From an uncultured SAR86 cluster bacterium (GTDB taxonomy: Bacteria; Pseudomonadota; Gammaproteobacteria; Magnimaribacterales; D2472): a stretch of DNA of 37,010 nt. Below the pieces are notes generated by a model, which did no database searches, was not told the DNA's origin, and worked only from the letters and a program-made list of their open reading frames with translations. Position numbers and translations under genes: made by a program. Position 1 is the stretch's first letter, and the number at the start of each line of letters is the position of its first letter. The stretch covers positions 1 through 37,010 of the forward strand of contig CACOEZ010000011.1 of the NCBI GenBank assembly GCA_902626385.1, written 5' to 3'. This document shows, piece after piece, positions 9,709 to 20,634 of this stretch.

Positions 9709-10332
9709 CTAAAGGGAAGCTTCTCCCCAGTAGTTGTAACCAACAATTTTCGGAGTACTTGGAAGATACATCTGCTCGAGTTTAGAAATTTTAAAACCTG
9801 AGCCCTGAATTATCTTTGGTATGTTTCTGTTTATATTACATCCACCAAATAACTTACTCCACAAGGGATTAATTCTGTTTTGCCATTTCATGATATTTTG
9901 ATCCGGAGCAATACCGTGTTCACAAAATAATAAGATACCGTTGTCTTTTATTACTCGTTTCATTTCTTTTAATGATTCTTTAAGTTCAGGAATAGTGCAT
10001 AGGGTGTATGTTATTAAGAGGGTGTCTATGGAATTACTGGGTAAAGCAATTTCCTCAGCTCCACCGATAACAAAATCAATATCAACAGAATATTTGGCTG
10101 CTTTTTTAATAGCTATTTCATTAAGTTCCTCTGAAGGATCAAGCCCAATTATTTTGTTAACTGACGATTTGTCGTAATGCGGGATGTTAAGCCCTGAACC
10201 AATTCCGATCTCTAGGACATTGCCTTTGGCCTTTGGTACAACTTTATTTCTCTGATAATTTATTGGTTTTGTAGAACAACATACGTCAAGAATTTTGGGT
10301 AAAACATATTTATCATACATCTCACCTATCAT
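9709..10332 (-). CDS. Class I SAM-dependent methyltransferase, METTL7/TMT1-like
   Basis: A 207-aa Rossmann-fold methyltransferase. Motif I is [14 protein letters not shown] (40-53), followed by the acidic GLDPS strand end, then [16 protein letters not shown] and FCEHGI. The C-terminal part ([18 protein letters not shown]) resembles human METTL7A/B, which methylate thiols. A small-molecule or lipid methyltransferase is therefore more likely than UbiE, though UbiE-type activity cannot be excluded. Its ATG overlaps the fabI stop by 4 bp (ATGA), which couples translation. A second Met at residue 5 is an alternative start. Cytoplasmic; no signal or membrane segment. Confidence 0.84.
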
Positions 10333-11117
10333 TCTTCTAACTCATTGAGAGGCATCGCTGATATATTAAAACCAGCATCAACGTATGTAATTTCACCAGT
10401 GATACCACTTGCGTAGTCAGAACAAAGAAATGCAGCCGTATTACCGACTTCCTCTGCGGTGACAGTTCTTCCTAATGGTGCTCTTTTTGAATGTTGGGAC
10501 AACATTTTTCTAAAATTCTTAACACCTGAAGCCGCAAGAGTCTTAATTGGGCCTGCTGAGATAGCATTAACTCTGATATTATCTTTACCCAAAGAAGCTG
10601 CTAAAAATCTTGTGTTAGCTTCAAGACTTGCTTTTGCAAGACCCATAACATTGTAATTTGGCATAGTTTGAACTGAACCCAGGTAAGTTAGTGTTAATAA
10701 AGCGGAATTATCATTCAAAAAAGGCTTTGCCTCTTTCGCCAGAGCAGTAAAACTATATGAACTTATGTCATGAGCAATTTTAAATCCCTCTCTATTTGTA
10801 ACATCTACAAAGTTACCTTCTAGTTGATCAGATGGAGCAAATCCAATGGAATGAACCAAACCATCAAATTTTCCCCAACTATTTGATAATTCTTGAATTG
10901 CCTTTTTTATTGAATCATCGCTAGAAACATCACATTCTATAAGGATATCTGAGCCATATTCTGCTGCAATTGGCTCTAGATTTTTTAATAAACGCTCATT
11001 CTGATAGGCAAATGCTAATTTTGCTCCTTGGTCATGCATTGATTTAGCAATACCTGCGGCTATTGAGTATTTGTTCGCAAGCCCAAAAATGACAATTTTT
11101 TTATCTTTTAACAACAT
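10329..11117 (-). CDS. fabI: Enoyl-[acyl-carrier-protein] reductase (NADH), FabI
   Basis: A 262-aa short-chain dehydrogenase/reductase of the FabI branch, which carries out the last reduction of the type II fatty-acid elongation cycle. Seen: the N-terminal [14 protein letters not shown] nucleotide-binding loop, HSIGFAP (89-95), and the FabI pair Tyr145 and Tyr155 with Lys162 in the Y-x6-K arrangement (E. coli 146/156/163). The C-terminal [12 protein letters not shown] is also typical. It is the first gene of a tight four-gene minus-strand operon. AAGGGG lies upstream at a long spacing of about 12 bases. The FabI type is the classic target of triclosan-like inhibitors. Confidence 0.95.
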
Positions 11118-11216: not shown

Positions 11217-11222
11217 TATAAT
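11217..11222 (+). promoter_or_regulatory. Candidate -10 element upstream of TBDR 2
   Basis: A perfect TATAAT lies 147 bases before the TBDR 2 start, but no convincing -35 element sits 16-18 bp upstream. It would give a leader of about 140 nt containing the palindrome at 11310-11323. The 251-bp gap between fabI and TBDR 2 holds no other gene that I can see. Confidence 0.3.
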
Positions 11223-11309
11223 ATAAATTCTATGAATAATTAAATATAAATAATATAAAAAGTTGTTGCGTAATATTAAAAAGGCTGAAACAATACAAAA
11301 ATAAGCGTG

Positions 11310-11368: not shown

Positions 11369-14182
11369 ATGTTTAAAAAAGAGAATTATTTATTTGCAGT
11401 TCTCGCTATTACGATCGGCTTATTCAATACTGAAATAGCTGCTCAAGACGAGTCTGCGGATAATGTAGAAGAGGTTGTTATAACCGGTTCTAGAATCAAA
11501 AGAGATTCATTAAATAGTGCCGCGCAGGTTACAACAATCACTAGTGAGGATATTGCTGCATCTTCAGGTTTAATCACTGCAGATGTTCTTCAGCAAACTA
11601 TCTATAACTCTTTTGGATCTATATCACCAACTGCTGGTAATAGCGCTATGAGTAACGCTACTATCAACATGAGGGGTTTAGGATCTGCTAGAACATTAGT
11701 TCTCATGGACGGAAGAAGAATGCCTGGTTCACCACATCTTGGTGGTTCCGGTGCTGCTAACATCAATATGATACCAACTATAGCAATAGAAAGAATCGAG
11801 ATATTAGCTGATGGTGCTTCGTCTGTTTATGGTTCTGATGCTATCGCTGGTGTTGTTAACGTTATAACAAAAAAAGGCATTGATGGAATGGAAATGAACT
11901 TCAGACGTGGTGACAGAGATCGTGACGACGGTGAAGAGAATGCAGTTTCTTTCATATACGGTGCTACAAACGACAAGGGTTATATAACTCTAACCGTCGA
12001 ACATGACGAAAGAGACGAAATCTATCTCAAAGACAGATGGTACACAATGGCAACAGCTGAAGACAGAAATGGCGACGGCGTGATTGACCTTTATAATGAA
12101 ACTTATGGACTAAGCTGGTATTCAAGAAACTTAGCTGATCCAGTTACAGGTGACATTATGGCTACTCCAACTTGTCCTGGTTCTGCTGATAATCCAACTG
12201 ATGGTTGGTGGGGACCAAACTTTGGTGGTGCTGCTTTTGGTCAAGGTCCAACATCTACTCCATCTAATGGTGGAGCTCCTAGAGGTATTTGTGGATTTGC
12301 ATGGGCTGACATTATGGTAGCTGATGCTGCGACATTTAGAGATAGTATTACATCAAACTTTGAATATGCGATTACTGATGATTTAAATCTATATTCAAGA
12401 GTAAATTTCATAAGAAACGAATCAACAGGAAGATTTGCTCCTCCTGCTGCAAGATATCCAGGTATTCCAGTTGGAGATCCAGCTAACCCATATGACCAAG
12501 AAATTACTGGTTATTGGAGATGGACCGAAATTGGTAACCGTGGAATGCACTTTGTTGATACAGCTATGGATGCTGTAATGGAGCTTACATACTCTATCAA
12601 TGATGATGTAGAAGTTACTTATGGTAAACAAATTAATAAATTTTATGGTACTGACATTGGTAGATATTACCTAAGTTATGCTGGTCTAGGTTACAACATT
12701 AATTATGGAGAGCCATTTGGATCAGAGGCTGGTGCTGCAGCTATGAGTGCTACAACTCTAGTTGAGTACACTAACCACTATGAGAAGCAAGATGTTGTGT
12801 TGCAAGTTGACAACGTAGCTGACATGGCCGGTGGTTCTGTATCAGTATTAGTCGGTATCGAAAACATCACTAATGAATACAGTGCTGAATATGATAAGCA
12901 TTCTGAAAATAGTTTAGTCGGTGGTTCAGCTGGTAACTCAGGTTTTGGATATAGAGAAATTGACTCTGTATTTGCTGAAGTTTTATTACCAGTTATGGAT
13001 AACCTAGAAGTTACAGCTTCTTTCAGAAGAGATGATTATTCAGACGTTGGTGAAGCTGATTCATTTAAAGTTGGTGCTTTATGGGTGCCTGTGGATGGAA
13101 CTACTGTAAAACTAAACTTCGGTGAAGGTTTCAGAGCTCCTACTATGGATGACTTATACGGTGCTACTACTTTTAGTGCTAATTCAGCAACTGACTACAC
13201 AGCTTGTCAAGCTTCTGGAACACCATTTGATCAGTGTTCAAGTAAGCAAGTATCAACTCTAATTAAAGCTAACCCTAATTTGGGTGCTGAGTCTTCAGAA
13301 AGCTTTACATTTAGTGTTGAACAAGACATTGGTGCTTTAATAGGTGCTTTAGAAGGTCTTTCTGTAAGATTTGATTATTTCGATATTACAGTTCTTGACG
13401 CTATTTCTTCATTAAGCACACAAGACGTATTGTGGAATGACTTTATTGGTGGTTCTGCACTTTCAAATAATGTTACATTTTATGACTCTGCTGGTATTGC
13501 CGGTGACGGTACTGCTGCTGGTGCTCCTGTAGGAACAGGAACAGTAGGTGGTGCTTGTCCAGCTGGTGCAGCTTATGTTAAGAGAGAAGGTAACGATCCA
13601 GCTATCTATTTAATCAGATCTTGCGGTAACGGACGTGTTGATTATATCGGTGCTGGTTTCACAAACGTTGGTGAAACTCAAGTTGTTGGTCATGACATCT
13701 TTGTTAATTACACAAGAGACGTTGGTCCTGGTGTGATGAATATTGGTTTTGACTATACTGCTATGGATGAGTACAACGGTGATGCTTTCACAGGAAGTTC
13801 AAAAAAGGTTAACTCTGTTGGGTTCCCTGGAACACCTGAGACAAGAAATAACTTGTCACTATCTTATACATGGGATAAATACAGCGTAGCTCTTACAAGA
13901 AGACACATTGGTGACTACAGATTGAATTCTGTTCCTGGAAACGATGCTTCTGGTAATCCAGATGGTAGTATCGTTAAGTCAGGCGGAACTCAAGACGAGT
14001 ACGATGCTCTTGATCTTCAAGTTAGAGCTGATCTAGGTAAATACGGAACTCTTACTTACGGTATGTTTAATGTCGAAGATAAAGATCCATTACCAGATAG
14101 AGTGCAAAACTATGAAACTTATCTAAGCCTTTACGGTAACCAAGGTAAGATTTCATACTTGAAATGGAATGTTAAGTTCTAA
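11369..14182 (+). CDS. TonB-dependent outer-membrane receptor (TBDR 2)
   Basis: 937 aa. A signal peptide (cleavage after IAA, residue 25) is followed by a TonB box VEEVVITGS (33-41) and the SRIKR sequence common in this receptor type. The plug carries NMRGLG, VLMDGRRMP and DGASSVYGSDAIAGVVN, and the barrel ends in WNVKF with a terminal Phe. No STN domain. AGGGGAA at 11358-11364 fixes the ATG at 11369. Gly/Ala/Ser-rich loops and a CPAGAAY segment lie in the barrel half. The gene ends in a strong terminator and is followed by a secreted TonB-C-terminal-like protein. The substrate cannot be inferred. It differs in length and loops from TBDR 1 and TBDR 3, so it is probably not a recent duplicate. 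Confidence 0.93.
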   Translation: MFKKENYLFAVLAITIGLFNTEIAAQDESADNVEEVVITGSRIKRDSLNSAAQVTTITSEDIAASSGLITADVLQQTIYNSFGSISPTAGNSAMSNATINMRGLGSARTLVLMDGRRMPGSPHLGGSGAANINMIPTIAIERIEILADGASSVYGSDAIAGVVNVITKKGIDGMEMNFRRGDRDRDDGEENAVSFIYGATNDKGYITLTVEHDERDEIYLKDRWYTMATAEDRNGDGVIDLYNETYGLSWYSRNLADPVTGDIMATPTCPGSADNPTDGWWGPNFGGAAFGQGPTSTPSNGGAPRGICGFAWADIMVADAATFRDSITSNFEYAITDDLNLYSRVNFIRNESTGRFAPPAARYPGIPVGDPANPYDQEITGYWRWTEIGNRGMHFVDTAMDAVMELTYSINDDVEVTYGKQINKFYGTDIGRYYLSYAGLGYNINYGEPFGSEAGAAAMSATTLVEYTNHYEKQDVVLQVDNVADMAGGSVSVLVGIENITNEYSAEYDKHSENSLVGGSAGNSGFGYREIDSVFAEVLLPVMDNLEVTASFRRDDYSDVGEADSFKVGALWVPVDGTTVKLNFGEGFRAPTMDDLYGATTFSANSATDYTACQASGTPFDQCSSKQVSTLIKANPNLGAESSESFTFSVEQDIGALIGALEGLSVRFDYFDITVLDAISSLSTQDVLWNDFIGGSALSNNVTFYDSAGIAGDGTAAGAPVGTGTVGGACPAGAAYVKREGNDPAIYLIRSCGNGRVDYIGAGFTNVGETQVVGHDIFVNYTRDVGPGVMNIGFDYTAMDEYNGDAFTGSSKKVNSVGFPGTPETRNNLSLSYTWDKYSVALTRRHIGDYRLNSVPGNDASGNPDGSIVKSGGTQDEYDALDLQVRADLGKYGTLTYGMFNVEDKDPLPDRVQNYETYLSLYGNQGKISYLKWNVKF

Positions 14183-18378: not shown

Positions 18379-19161
18379 ATGAAATTAACAATTTTGATTA
18401 TTCTTGCATATTCTAATCTTATATTTGCAGATGTGGTAGGCAATCTTGTGAAATTAGAGAATCCAAACCCAACAAGAGTGTTATTTATTGGCAATAGCTA
18501 TCTTTACTATAACGATAGCCTGCATAATCACGTAAGACGAATGGTTGAAGAAACATTCCCAGATAAAATAGATGAACTTGAATTTAAGTCAGCAACAATA
18601 GGCGGATCTAAATTAGCACACCATAATATTGATTACTTGCTAGATAATGAGAATATTGAAGTTTCAAAACCTTTTGAGCTAGTAATTTTACAAGGTGGAA
18701 GCACAGAACCTCTTTCTAAAAAATCGAGAGAAGCCTTTTCAAATAAAGCTAAGAGTTTTGTAAAAAAAATTAATCATACAGGTGCAGACGCTGCCCTATA
18801 TATGATCCATGCCTATGTTGAACCTCATGAAGACTTTGACCCCGATATGATTAATAAAGTTACGAAATCATACTCAGAAACAGGTTCGTTAACTAATTCT
18901 TTAGTTCTGCCAGTAGGGATAGCTTTTAAAAATGCTTATGCAGAAAAACCAAATATTCAACTTCATAAAGATTTTGATGGAACTCATCCAGATCTTCTTG
19001 GAACATACTTATCAGCATGTGTCTTGTTTGCATCGATTTATAAGATTTCACCAAAAGAAATCAAATATAACTATTTTGATCGAATAGGGGATAAAGACAG
19101 ATTATTTTTGCAGCAAATTGCTCACGATACGGTTGAGTCTTACTTTAAATTAAAGTTATAG
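18379..19161 (+). CDS. Secreted SGNH-superfamily hydrolase (DUF4886-like)
   Basis: 260 aa with a signal peptide (cleavage after IFA, residue 17). The SGNH blocks can be followed: VLFIGNSY with candidate nucleophile Ser40, VILQGGSTEP (103-111) in place of the usual GxND block, and DGTHPD with Asp200 and His203 as the remaining catalytic pair. It probably cleaves an ester (carbohydrate acetyl or lipid) in the periplasm; the substrate is unknown. Length and blocks match proteins annotated DUF4886. The stop overlaps that of the convergent alternative oxidase by 6 bp. Confidence 0.75.
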   Translation: MKLTILIILAYSNLIFADVVGNLVKLENPNPTRVLFIGNSYLYYNDSLHNHVRRMVEETFPDKIDELEFKSATIGGSKLAHHNIDYLLDNENIEVSKPFELVILQGGSTEPLSKKSREAFSNKAKSFVKKINHTGADAALYMIHAYVEPHEDFDPDMINKVTKSYSETGSLTNSLVLPVGIAFKNAYAEKPNIQLHKDFDGTHPDLLGTYLSACVLFASIYKISPKEIKYNYFDRIGDKDRLFLQQIAHDTVESYFKLKL

Positions 19162-19758
19162 TTTGTCAGCGTAGTTATGATTTGTTTCGCTATGGTGTTC
19201 TTCATCGGCACGAACACATCTAATTAAATCTGATAATTTTGAATCGCTACCAAGCTTGTAATAACTTATAGCTAATTTTGGAGCAGGAATATTTTCAACC
19301 TTACCAGTTTCTACAAGCTCAAGATATTCTGTATAACTTTTAACAGCTTCATCTTCAAAGTAACCAATCATTCTGTGTGCAGTTCTAGTGAAGAAGACAT
19401 ACATGAACAAATAAAACAAGCCAAAAACTATCTGAGCACAAAGAACAATTAATCTTTCAAAAAAATTAGGCTTAGCAATTTCTATGAAAAACATTAGATG
19501 CATTCTTTCATTTTCAGCTTCAGCAAGCATTTCTCTGATCTGTTCGCCGTAACCAGCTTTCATAACTCTTAAGCTCTTAAAATGCATCCAAACACCAGCA
19601 ACCATACCTGGGACTCCAGCAACAGTTTCCAATACAACAGCACGATGACCGTATCTTTTAGCAAAGAATGTATCTGCTGTAAATCTAAAAAACCTTGTCA
19701 TTGATAGAGCAAAGGCATCAGAGATATTTTCTCTGCTTATTTTATCTAGGATTTGCAT
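19156..19758 (-). CDS. aox: Alternative oxidase (ubiquinol:O2, cyanide-insensitive)
   Basis: A 200-aa di-iron quinol oxidase that passes electrons from ubiquinol directly to O2 without pumping protons. All six iron ligands are present by motif: Glu44 (LET), Glu84 and His87 (NERMH), Glu135 (FEDEA, usually LEEEA), Glu186 and His189 (RADEEHH). Hydrophobic helices at about 47-58 and 102-123 fit monotopic inner-membrane binding. Shorter than plant or fungal forms because it lacks a transit peptide. It stands alone with its own promoter, whose -10 is covered by a palindrome. In Vibrio fischeri aox is controlled by the NO sensor NsrR, so a similar trigger is possible here. Confidence 0.94.
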   Translation of the reverse strand: MQILDKISRENISDAFALSMTRFFRFTADTFFAKRYGHRAVVLETVAGVPGMVAGVWMHFKSLRVMKAGYGEQIREMLAEAENERMHLMFFIEIAKPNFFERLIVLCAQIVFGLFYLFMYVFFTRTAHRMIGYFEDEAVKSYTEYLELVETGKVENIPAPKLAISYYKLGSDSKLSDLIRCVRADEEHHSETNHNYADKL

Positions 19759-19781
19759 AAATAATATAAGAAATATATATA

Positions 19782-19813
19782 AAGTATTATACTTATTATT
19801 TATATTATGTAAA
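19782..19813 (-). promoter_or_regulatory. Promoter of alternative oxidase with palindrome over the -10 box
   Basis: On the minus strand, TTTACA (19813-19808, 5/6) and a perfect TATAAT (19791-19786) are 16 bp apart. The perfect palindrome AAGTATTATACTT (19782-19794) covers the whole -10 element, a classic place for a repressor. The leader would be about 20 nt and lacks a clear ribosome-binding site. Confidence 0.5.
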
Positions 19814-19851: not shown

Positions 19852-20634
19852 ATGAAGTTAGATATTTACTACATTGATGCATTTTCAAGTAACTTGTTTT
19901 CAGGTAACCCAGCTGCTGTAATATTCTCAGATCTTGACGATGAAGTATTAATGCAAAATATAGCTGCAGAAAACAATCTTTCAGAAACAGCTTTTATTAA
20001 TACTAACCAAAATGGAAATCACATTAGATGGTTTTCACCGACAACTGAGGTAAATCTTTGTGGTCACGCAACACTTGCCTCAGCTTATGCTTATTTTAAT
20101 TTCATAAGCCCTGATGAAACTTTAATTTCATTTCAGTCTGCAAGTGGTGAATTAAAAGTATCAAGAACTGATCAAGTATATGAATTAGATTTCCCAAAGG
20201 ATAATTTCGATATTACAGATGCTGTAGATGAAGTTAGAAGTGCAATAGGTATTGAGCCCCTTGAAACTTATTTAGGAGACATAAACATGTTTGCAGTTTT
20301 TGAAAATGAAAAAGCTATTGAAAATATGAACCCTGACTTTAACAAAGTAGCCAACTTAGAAGGTCAAGGTCTAATAGTTTCATCAAGGAGCGTAGATTAC
20401 GATTTTGTTTCAAGATATTTCTGTCCAAAGTATGGAATTAATGAGGATCCAGTTACTGGTTCTGCTCATACAACTCTTATACCTTATTGGTCTGAAAAAT
20501 TAGGTAAGACCTCAATGATTGCTAAACAAATTTCAAAGAGGGGTGGTGAACTGTTTTGCAAAAACTCTACAACGAGAGTTTATATTGGAGGAAAAGCAAA
20601 GTTATATATGAAGGGAGAAATTAAAATAGATTAG
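19852..20634 (+). CDS. PhzF-family epimerase/isomerase
   Basis: A 260-aa protein of the diaminopimelate-epimerase-like fold. Family landmarks: YYIDAFSSNLFSGNPAAV, NNLSETAF with the catalytic-type Glu45 (same number as PhzF Glu45), RWFSPTTEVNLCGHATLA (C70, G71, H72), and SRYFCPKYG with EDPVTGSAHTTL near the end. PhzF isomerises a phenazine precursor, but no other phenazine gene is present, so this is one of the many stand-alone homologues of unknown substrate. TAATAT lies 7 bases before the ATG. The 3' end overlaps the convergent reductase by 4 bp. Confidence 0.9.
   Translation: MKLDIYYIDAFSSNLFSGNPAAVIFSDLDDEVLMQNIAAENNLSETAFINTNQNGNHIRWFSPTTEVNLCGHATLASAYAYFNFISPDETLISFQSASGELKVSRTDQVYELDFPKDNFDITDAVDEVRSAIGIEPLETYLGDINMFAVFENEKAIENMNPDFNKVANLEGQGLIVSSRSVDYDFVSRYFCPKYGINEDPVTGSAHTTLIPYWSEKLGKTSMIAKQISKRGGELFCKNSTTRVYIGGKAKLYMKGEIKID

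Follow-up and report, generated by a model that had tools for sequence, protein, structure and literature searches.

The DNA analysed here, called the window throughout, is a stretch of 37,010 nucleotides (contig CACOEZ010000011.1) from the assembly of an uncultured SAR86 cluster bacterium (GCA_902626385.1, genome G000; 1.09 Mb, 72% complete). Its subject is the promoter of the alternative oxidase gene, aox, together with a conserved 40-bp palindromic block that overlaps this promoter and probably serves as an operator. The aox gene lies on the minus strand (19156–19758, 200 amino acids) and matches PF01786 (E 8.1e-69; 232 bits against a gathering score of 22.7). Upstream of it is a 93-bp intergenic gap of 86% A+T, beyond which a PhzF-like gene runs in the divergent direction (19852–20634, plus strand, 260 amino acids; PF02567, E 1.6e-53). 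On the minus strand of this gap the -35-like element TTTACA (19813–19808) is followed after 16 bp by the -10 box TATAAT (19791–19786). Aox promoters could be aligned without gaps from the -35 element to past the expected start site, and TATAAT was found at this position in 28 of 35 rows. The -35-like element is less strictly kept, with its first T present in 30 of the 35, its second in 23 and the remainder looser.

Across 42 aligned promoters, belonging either to aox or to a pseudoazurin–aox operon, a 40-bp block is conserved that corresponds to 19765–19804 of the window (minus strand). Its family consensus is TATAAAT-N6-TATAAT-N3-TTATAAA-N5-TTTATA, which can be written as two tandem 15-bp dyads, ATAAR-N5-YTTAT-N8-ATAAR-N5-YTTAT. 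Columns were numbered from the first T of TATAAT (column 0), which places the two-fold centre of the block at column 6.5, or 19784.5 in the window. At this centre 0.680 of pairs are complementary over 20 positions (42 sequences), compared with 0.274–0.548 (mean 0.42) at 39 other centres, and none of 2000 column permutations reached the observed value. The block also repeats itself at a shift of 23 bp (0.655; other shifts from 5 to 35 bp gave 0.274–0.533), and the symmetry and the repeat together point to two tandem inverted repeats with centres 23 bp apart. The first of these, O1 (19788–19804, minus strand; 15-bp core 19789–19803), lies between the -35 and -10 elements and includes the TATA of the -10 box, whereas O2 (19765–19781, minus strand; core 19766–19780) runs into the leader from the expected start of transcription. 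Four AT pairs are invariant in all 40 rows of the alignment A1, at columns -12/-11, 1/2, 11/12 and 24/25; these are 19803/19802 and 19790/19789 in O1 and 19780/19779 and 19767/19766 in O2. The TATAAT of the promoter is also the inner left half-site of the block, which spans the -10 box and the expected start site, reaching from about -25 to +14. Of the 20 fixed positions of the consensus, 3 are not matched by the copy in the window, and a search with the IUPAC consensus allowing up to 3 mismatches returned one match in the window, at aox (0.28 expected; 24 of 100 shuffles contained at least one).

The 35 promoters behind the scoring matrix scored between 17.5 and 33.3, and A1 comprises the 42-row block less L063 and L086. 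Both the 35-row alignment and the 42-row block omit L038, L040 and L041, which have another promoter and no block, as well as L052–L055, L057, L058, L061, L064, L066, L072, L074, L080, L082 and L084. Within 700 bp upstream of aox, L082 and L084 scored 15.3 and 14.7 and the other twelve of this latter group -8.2 to 8.4; a later model, R2, matched aox in the genomes of L055, L057, L066 and L080. In one SAR86 group (L059, L067, L070, L071 and L076) the block lies approximately 480–500 bp before the aox match, ahead of a pseudoazurin-like gene. In these loci and in L156, aox directly follows the gene for this secreted copper protein, an arrangement that suggests joint expression. A less A+T-rich variant, with an inner pair of approximately CTTATA-N6-TATAAG and a longer leader, was seen in L252, L258, L237 and L262 (aox of the L055, L057, L068 and L066 genomes, respectively). 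The aox genes of L038, L040 and L041, from a related group, have no operator (best upstream scores -7.3 to 1.1) and their genomes no LysR match; L040 and L041 carry a plain TTGACT...TATAAT promoter and L038 a similar one. Upstream of aox in L077 and L079, from genomes of the PS1 and OCS116 clades, there is a GCGTCAATCTGACACTT stretch unlike the SAR86 block, perhaps reflecting another alphaproteobacterial control of aox.

A preliminary description of this locus had drawn attention to a smaller palindrome, AAGTATTATACTT (19782–19794; 6-bp arms, 1-bp centre), lying over TATAAT with TTTACA 16 bp upstream. Its letters and coordinates are correct, and it sits within the operator, whose centre is 3.5 bp away. 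However, a perfect dyad of this kind (arms of at least 6 bp, loop of at most 1 bp) turned up in 44% of the sequences obtained when the 93-bp gap was dinucleotide-shuffled 5000 times. With TATAAT fixed and local flanks drawn at random, a covering dyad (arms of at least 6 bp, loop of at most 4 bp) arose in 20% of 20,000 draws, and among the 493 real TATAATs of the window and 55 loci, 81 lie under one. The window contains the exact 13-mer a single time (4 matches with up to 2 mismatches, 3.3 expected), and among 101 loci it is present only in L002, a copy of the window. Symmetry of the aligned promoters at the centre of this dyad is 0.494. The preliminary description held that the dyad should be kept upstream of aox in relatives, and would be refuted if it were lost while the promoter persisted; of the 35 SAR86 aox promoters aligned, one has the dyad and 28 have TATAAT. 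It is therefore rejected as a functional site and is probably a chance symmetry in an A+T-rich gap. The suggestion in the preliminary description that a palindrome over the -10 box implies repression survives in another form, not through that particular dyad: the -10 box is indeed overlapped by an operator with palindromic symmetry, which would fit repression.

The block was also directly observed to recur before genes that are not homologous to aox. The aox block was modelled from sequence alone (R1, built from the 40 rows of A1) and the model run over 34 genomes of the genus; 68 of 70 examined places were found to lie before nine gene sets, namely aox (13, assigned by coordinates), rpoH (13), pseudoazurin/serine hydrolase (12), fadB/glutathione peroxidase (gpx; 11), coxB (9), etfB with ETF-QO, where ETF denotes electron-transfer flavoprotein (4), TonB receptor/fabI (3), sdhA (2) and doxX/alcohol dehydrogenase (1). 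The remaining two (L182 and L185) fall outside these sets. Among the matches listed, with E up to about 0.074, further R1 places outside the 70 include aox of G001, G019 and G025, pseudoazurin–aox of G024, and the positions G023:C3:93447, G018:C1:48174, G019:C3:91348, G003:C13:575 and G014:C3:27099. One ortholog apiece was used to check the products of rpoH, pseudoazurin (where the cut-off for that family was exceeded), the serine hydrolase, fadB, gpx, etfB, coxB and the TonB receptor. For sdhA the match was to a general FAD domain only, and its name, like those of ETF-QO, FabI, DoxX and the dehydrogenase, comes from likeness. The expectation of a shared element before other respiratory genes is borne out in outline, for the larger operator.

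Eight columns are invariant across 39 sites chosen from the nine sets, and the consensuses of the eight non-aox sets, taken alone, peak in symmetry at the same centre (0.694; next highest 0.507). In six of these eight sets none of 300 column-permuted aox matrices reached the real score, whereas 3 of 300 did so for fadB/gpx and 2 of 300 for TonB/fabI; the sequences are related, so that these counts are not probabilities, and this must be set against a shared regulon, as must the low scores given by the aox-only matrix at L195 (-1.5), L187 (2.8) and L190 (3.7), which belong to the fadB/gpx and TonB/fabI sets. Matches scoring at least 8 outside aox promoters are rare: one was found in 375 kb of SAR86 DNA (the window and 54 loci), where 60 permuted matrices averaged 4.7, and at a threshold of 14 the same DNA gave one real match against a permuted mean of 0.33 and maximum of 4. 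This sole match is a second, weaker copy of the operator in the window itself (11222–11261, plus strand, column 0 at 11235, score 15.1), with a poor last half-site. It stands 134 bp before the start of an open reading frame for a TonB-dependent receptor (11369–14182, plus strand, 937 amino acids), between this gene and a divergent gene that is FabI-like by likeness (10329–11117, minus strand). The ortholog of the receptor in L147 has a Plug domain (PF07715), and the orthologous gap contains model matches in L147, L150 and L195. The single site is not significant alone and is counted because the same gap is matched in other genomes, making the receptor a probable regulon member.

A second model (R2), built from the 39 sites, was run over 38 genomes and gave matches at E ≤ 0.1 in 27. 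In the genome from which the window derives, 7 of 7 distinct sites at this threshold lie before sdhA, aox, fadB/gpx, coxB, rpoH, pseudoazurin and etf/ETF-QO, bearing in mind that the training set included this genome's own aox and fadB sites and, for the remaining five, orthologous sites. R2 matches in further genera of SAR86 were found at aox, sdhC/sdhA, rpoH, coxB, pseudoazurin and a gpx-like gene and, in L298, at a Rieske-like (bc1) gene, most of these genes being named by likeness. Among the 27 R2 loci read, L247 could be assigned to none of the gene sets, and L260 (G034) and L261 (G036) lie inside coding frames; of 20 further places, L296, L297 and L299 are unexplained by regulon genes. 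The genomes G065–G070 (alphaproteobacterial, Porticoccaceae, SAR92 and similar) gave no R2 match at E ≤ 0.1, and one of them, G067, titled Rickettsiales, is the source of the weakest row of the 42-row block (L086).

Symmetry at a promoter need not imply a regulator. The near-symmetry of TATAAT can give divergent promoters with start sites 7–25 bp apart, mostly 18 (PMC10268837), and several of the operator sites do lie between divergent genes. The inner half-sites could serve as overlapping -10 elements. Beside aox itself, the divergent PhzF-like gene is found only in some relatives, with similar opposite-strand starts in L023, L024, L026, L028, L029 and L031. Overlapping promoters would not account for the outer AT steps, which flank the expected start at about 24 bp upstream and 13 bp downstream and are as invariant as the -10 box, and no divergent start was seen near the site in the listed rpoH and coxB loci. 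Nor would a generic property of promoters confine the block to these genes, as the one match outside aox promoters in 375 kb indicates. A bidirectional promoter as the whole explanation is accordingly considered improbable.

The explanation favoured with reasonable confidence is that the 40-bp block at 19765–19804 is an operator that aox has in common with a respiratory regulon (sdh, cox, ETF/ETF-QO, fadB/gpx, pseudoazurin, rpoH and the TonB receptor) and that would be bound by a repressing factor acting as a dimer of dimers. On sequence evidence, aox probably belongs to this SAR86 regulon, with one regulator controlling its genes together. The predicted factor would occupy the two tandem dyads and, because a dimer of dimers bound there would cover both the -10 box and the start site, repression is likely. 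Aox would then be switched together with the main aerobic chain rather than within a response to nitric oxide (NO). The composition of the gene set, with electron donors, carriers, two oxidases, beta-oxidation and a heat-shock sigma factor, likewise suggests a signal of carbon or energy state and not NO.

The identity of the binding factor was addressed by surveying the Rrf2, Crp/Fnr, MarR, OmpR-type, Fis-type helix-turn-helix, TetR and LysR families. An NsrR/Rrf2-type regulator had been put forward in the preliminary description by analogy with Vibrio fischeri, in which aox is indeed under NsrR (PMC5156696), a relationship that does not carry over to SAR86. The Rrf2 model found one protein in 27 of the 34 genus genomes and none in seven, with one in each of the six genomes that are at least 90% complete. 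An IscS-type peptide motif is present at all 27 loci and iscS directly follows in the window's own genome, for which reasons these proteins are taken as IscR. No operator copy was found at the 27 iscR loci (best scores -3.0 to 6.8). An NsrR-type dyad was not encountered at aox, where the conserved block differs in form, the known NsrR consensus itself not having been scanned. That NsrR or another Rrf2-type NO sensor binds the small dyad and represses aox is therefore extremely improbable: the dyad does overlap the -10 box, but it is kept in 1 of 35 promoters, and no Rrf2 protein other than IscR was found in the 34 genomes (the window's own being 72% complete). As the sole Rrf2 protein of the genus, IscR might instead bind the operator with an altered, AT-rich specificity, and several regulon targets encode iron-sulfur or haem enzymes. 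The absence of a copy before iscR–iscS and an operator motif and half-site spacing that differ from known IscR sites make this very unlikely.

Several other families yielded no strong candidate. Crp/Fnr is not supported (PF13545 gave nothing over cut-off in 17 genomes). MarR is unlikely, since PF12802 gave nothing over cut-off in 10 genomes and the six weak matches are short, winged-helix-like proteins whose loci lack an operator, scoring 3.9 at best. Fis-type proteins in 10 genomes were Fis-sized, with one NtrC-sized and none RegA-sized. A single PhoB-like protein of OmpR type was found in 11 of 17 genomes and not in G027, which has operator matches. TetR proteins number 2–5 per genome in the 17 genomes, and one type is encoded within an operon for acyl-CoA carboxylase. 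Both fadB and etf are in the regulon, and PsrA, a TetR-type regulator, controls fad and etf genes in other bacteria. Against a TetR-type binder, reading of 18 TetR loci revealed no operator (the best score, 8.4, fell in a coding frame), two of the types look like SlmA and an efflux repressor, and T-N11-A with four-half-site spacing fits LysR better. A real operator bound by a factor of another known family, whether TetR or one outside those surveyed, is nonetheless a serious, if minority, possibility.

The genus has exactly one LysR-type gene in 29 of 34 genomes and none found in five. Its protein is nearest to BsrA and LeuO and below both cut-offs; the best NCBIfam match is BsrA (NF050187, E 2.4e-52), of which, at 177.9 bits against a cut-off of 480, it is not a member. 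Both operator sites show T-N11-A with dyad symmetry, their invariant AT steps being 13 bp apart, and the 23-bp repeat separates the two dimer sites by roughly two helical turns, as for a tetramer. The gene lies within 5 kb of an operator match in at least 17 genomes, which represent one inherited locus and are not independent, and no LysR match was found in G034, G036 and G037, whose aox lacks the operator. G044 has neither LysR nor an operator match. The dyads, the four half-sites, the proximity and the joint absence favour LysR, and this single BsrA/LeuO-like regulator, responding to a signal of carbon or energy state, is tentatively proposed as the factor, at slightly less than an even chance. 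In L198–L205 the gap between the LysR gene and a divergent acyl-CoA dehydrogenase gene contains a different conserved dyad, approximately TACTATT-N12-AATAGTA, with a TATAATAG-like element, possibly the site of LysR itself.

A number of points speak against a repressing LysR-type factor. Repression rather than activation is read from position alone. The survey covered the seven families named above, and the binder may belong to another, such as GntR, ArsR (with the sulfide sensors BigR and HlyU, considered in the light of PMC4330345), Lrp, MerR or Fur, or may be one of the TetR proteins. The shared absence in G034, G036 and G037 may be one evolutionary loss, and these are small assemblies of approximately 0.9 Mb; G034 and G036 keep two weak partial R2 matches each (E 0.036–0.094), one of each having been read and found inside a coding frame. 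Operator matches occur without LysR in G042 and G053, and LysR without a match at E ≤ 0.1 in G045 and G049. Of the five genomes lacking LysR, which are 71–81% complete, at least G010 and G029 retain the aox operator. Finally, the divergent promoter of the LysR gene has no clear operator copy, eight of nine loci scoring -5.3 to 2.3 and L204 a borderline 8.7; a site there is common in LysR-type transcriptional regulators (LTTRs) and not required.

SAR86 is an abundant ocean lineage with streamlined genomes, and the regulation of its energy metabolism seems little described. The form of the operator is ordinary; a search of open-licence literature by title found nothing on such a regulon and its place in SAR86 or on the control of SAR86 energy metabolism, and nothing to the point on SAR86 promoters or on LysR with respiration. 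If the proposal is true, the operator offers a testable definition of the regulon and names a candidate regulator, and through one short DNA site the main respiratory chain, beta-oxidation and rpoH are linked with the alternative oxidase. More speculatively, and on balance doubtfully, the sole LysR-type protein found in these genomes might fill the role that Crp, Fnr and ArcA have in other gammaproteobacteria and act as a master switch for energy metabolism in SAR86. Its four-half-site operators over core promoters would then govern succinate dehydrogenase, cytochrome oxidase (with bc1 in one genus), alternative oxidase, pseudoazurin, ETF and beta-oxidation, as well as the heat-shock sigma factor.

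The targets of the ArcA, Crp/Fnr and PsrA regulons overlap the SAR86 set (sdh, fad, etf and oxidases). SAR86 differs from the Crp/Fnr and ArcA systems in that no Crp-model protein exceeded the cut-off in 17 genomes and the single OmpR-type protein is PhoB-like. With the NsrR–aox system of V. fischeri it would share a bacterial aox under transcriptional control, in SAR86 a predicted one, whereas no NsrR was found in genomes of the SAR86 genus and the operator and regulon differ. In form the operator is like LTTR tetramer operators, which also have T-N11-A in each dyad, two dyads and four half-sites; the nod box and the operators of MetR are further examples. Relative to OxyR, the SAR86 half-site is ATAAR and the middle spacer N8, as opposed to N7 in OxyR. 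OxyR is described as a tetramer that binds four ATAG elements at 10-bp intervals (PMC3953959). BsrA (PA2121) of Pseudomonas aeruginosa is a global regulator with T-N11-A sites that represses tricarboxylic acid cycle genes, its sites lying 3–184 bp from start codons (PMC8407307). The sequence that BsrA prefers differs from the SAR86 operator, and BsrA binds its own promoter, whereas that of the SAR86 LysR gene has no clear operator copy. In its placement, too, the SAR86 operator departs from the LysR-type pattern, since LTTR sites lie mostly upstream, whereas this one sits on the -10 box and the start site.
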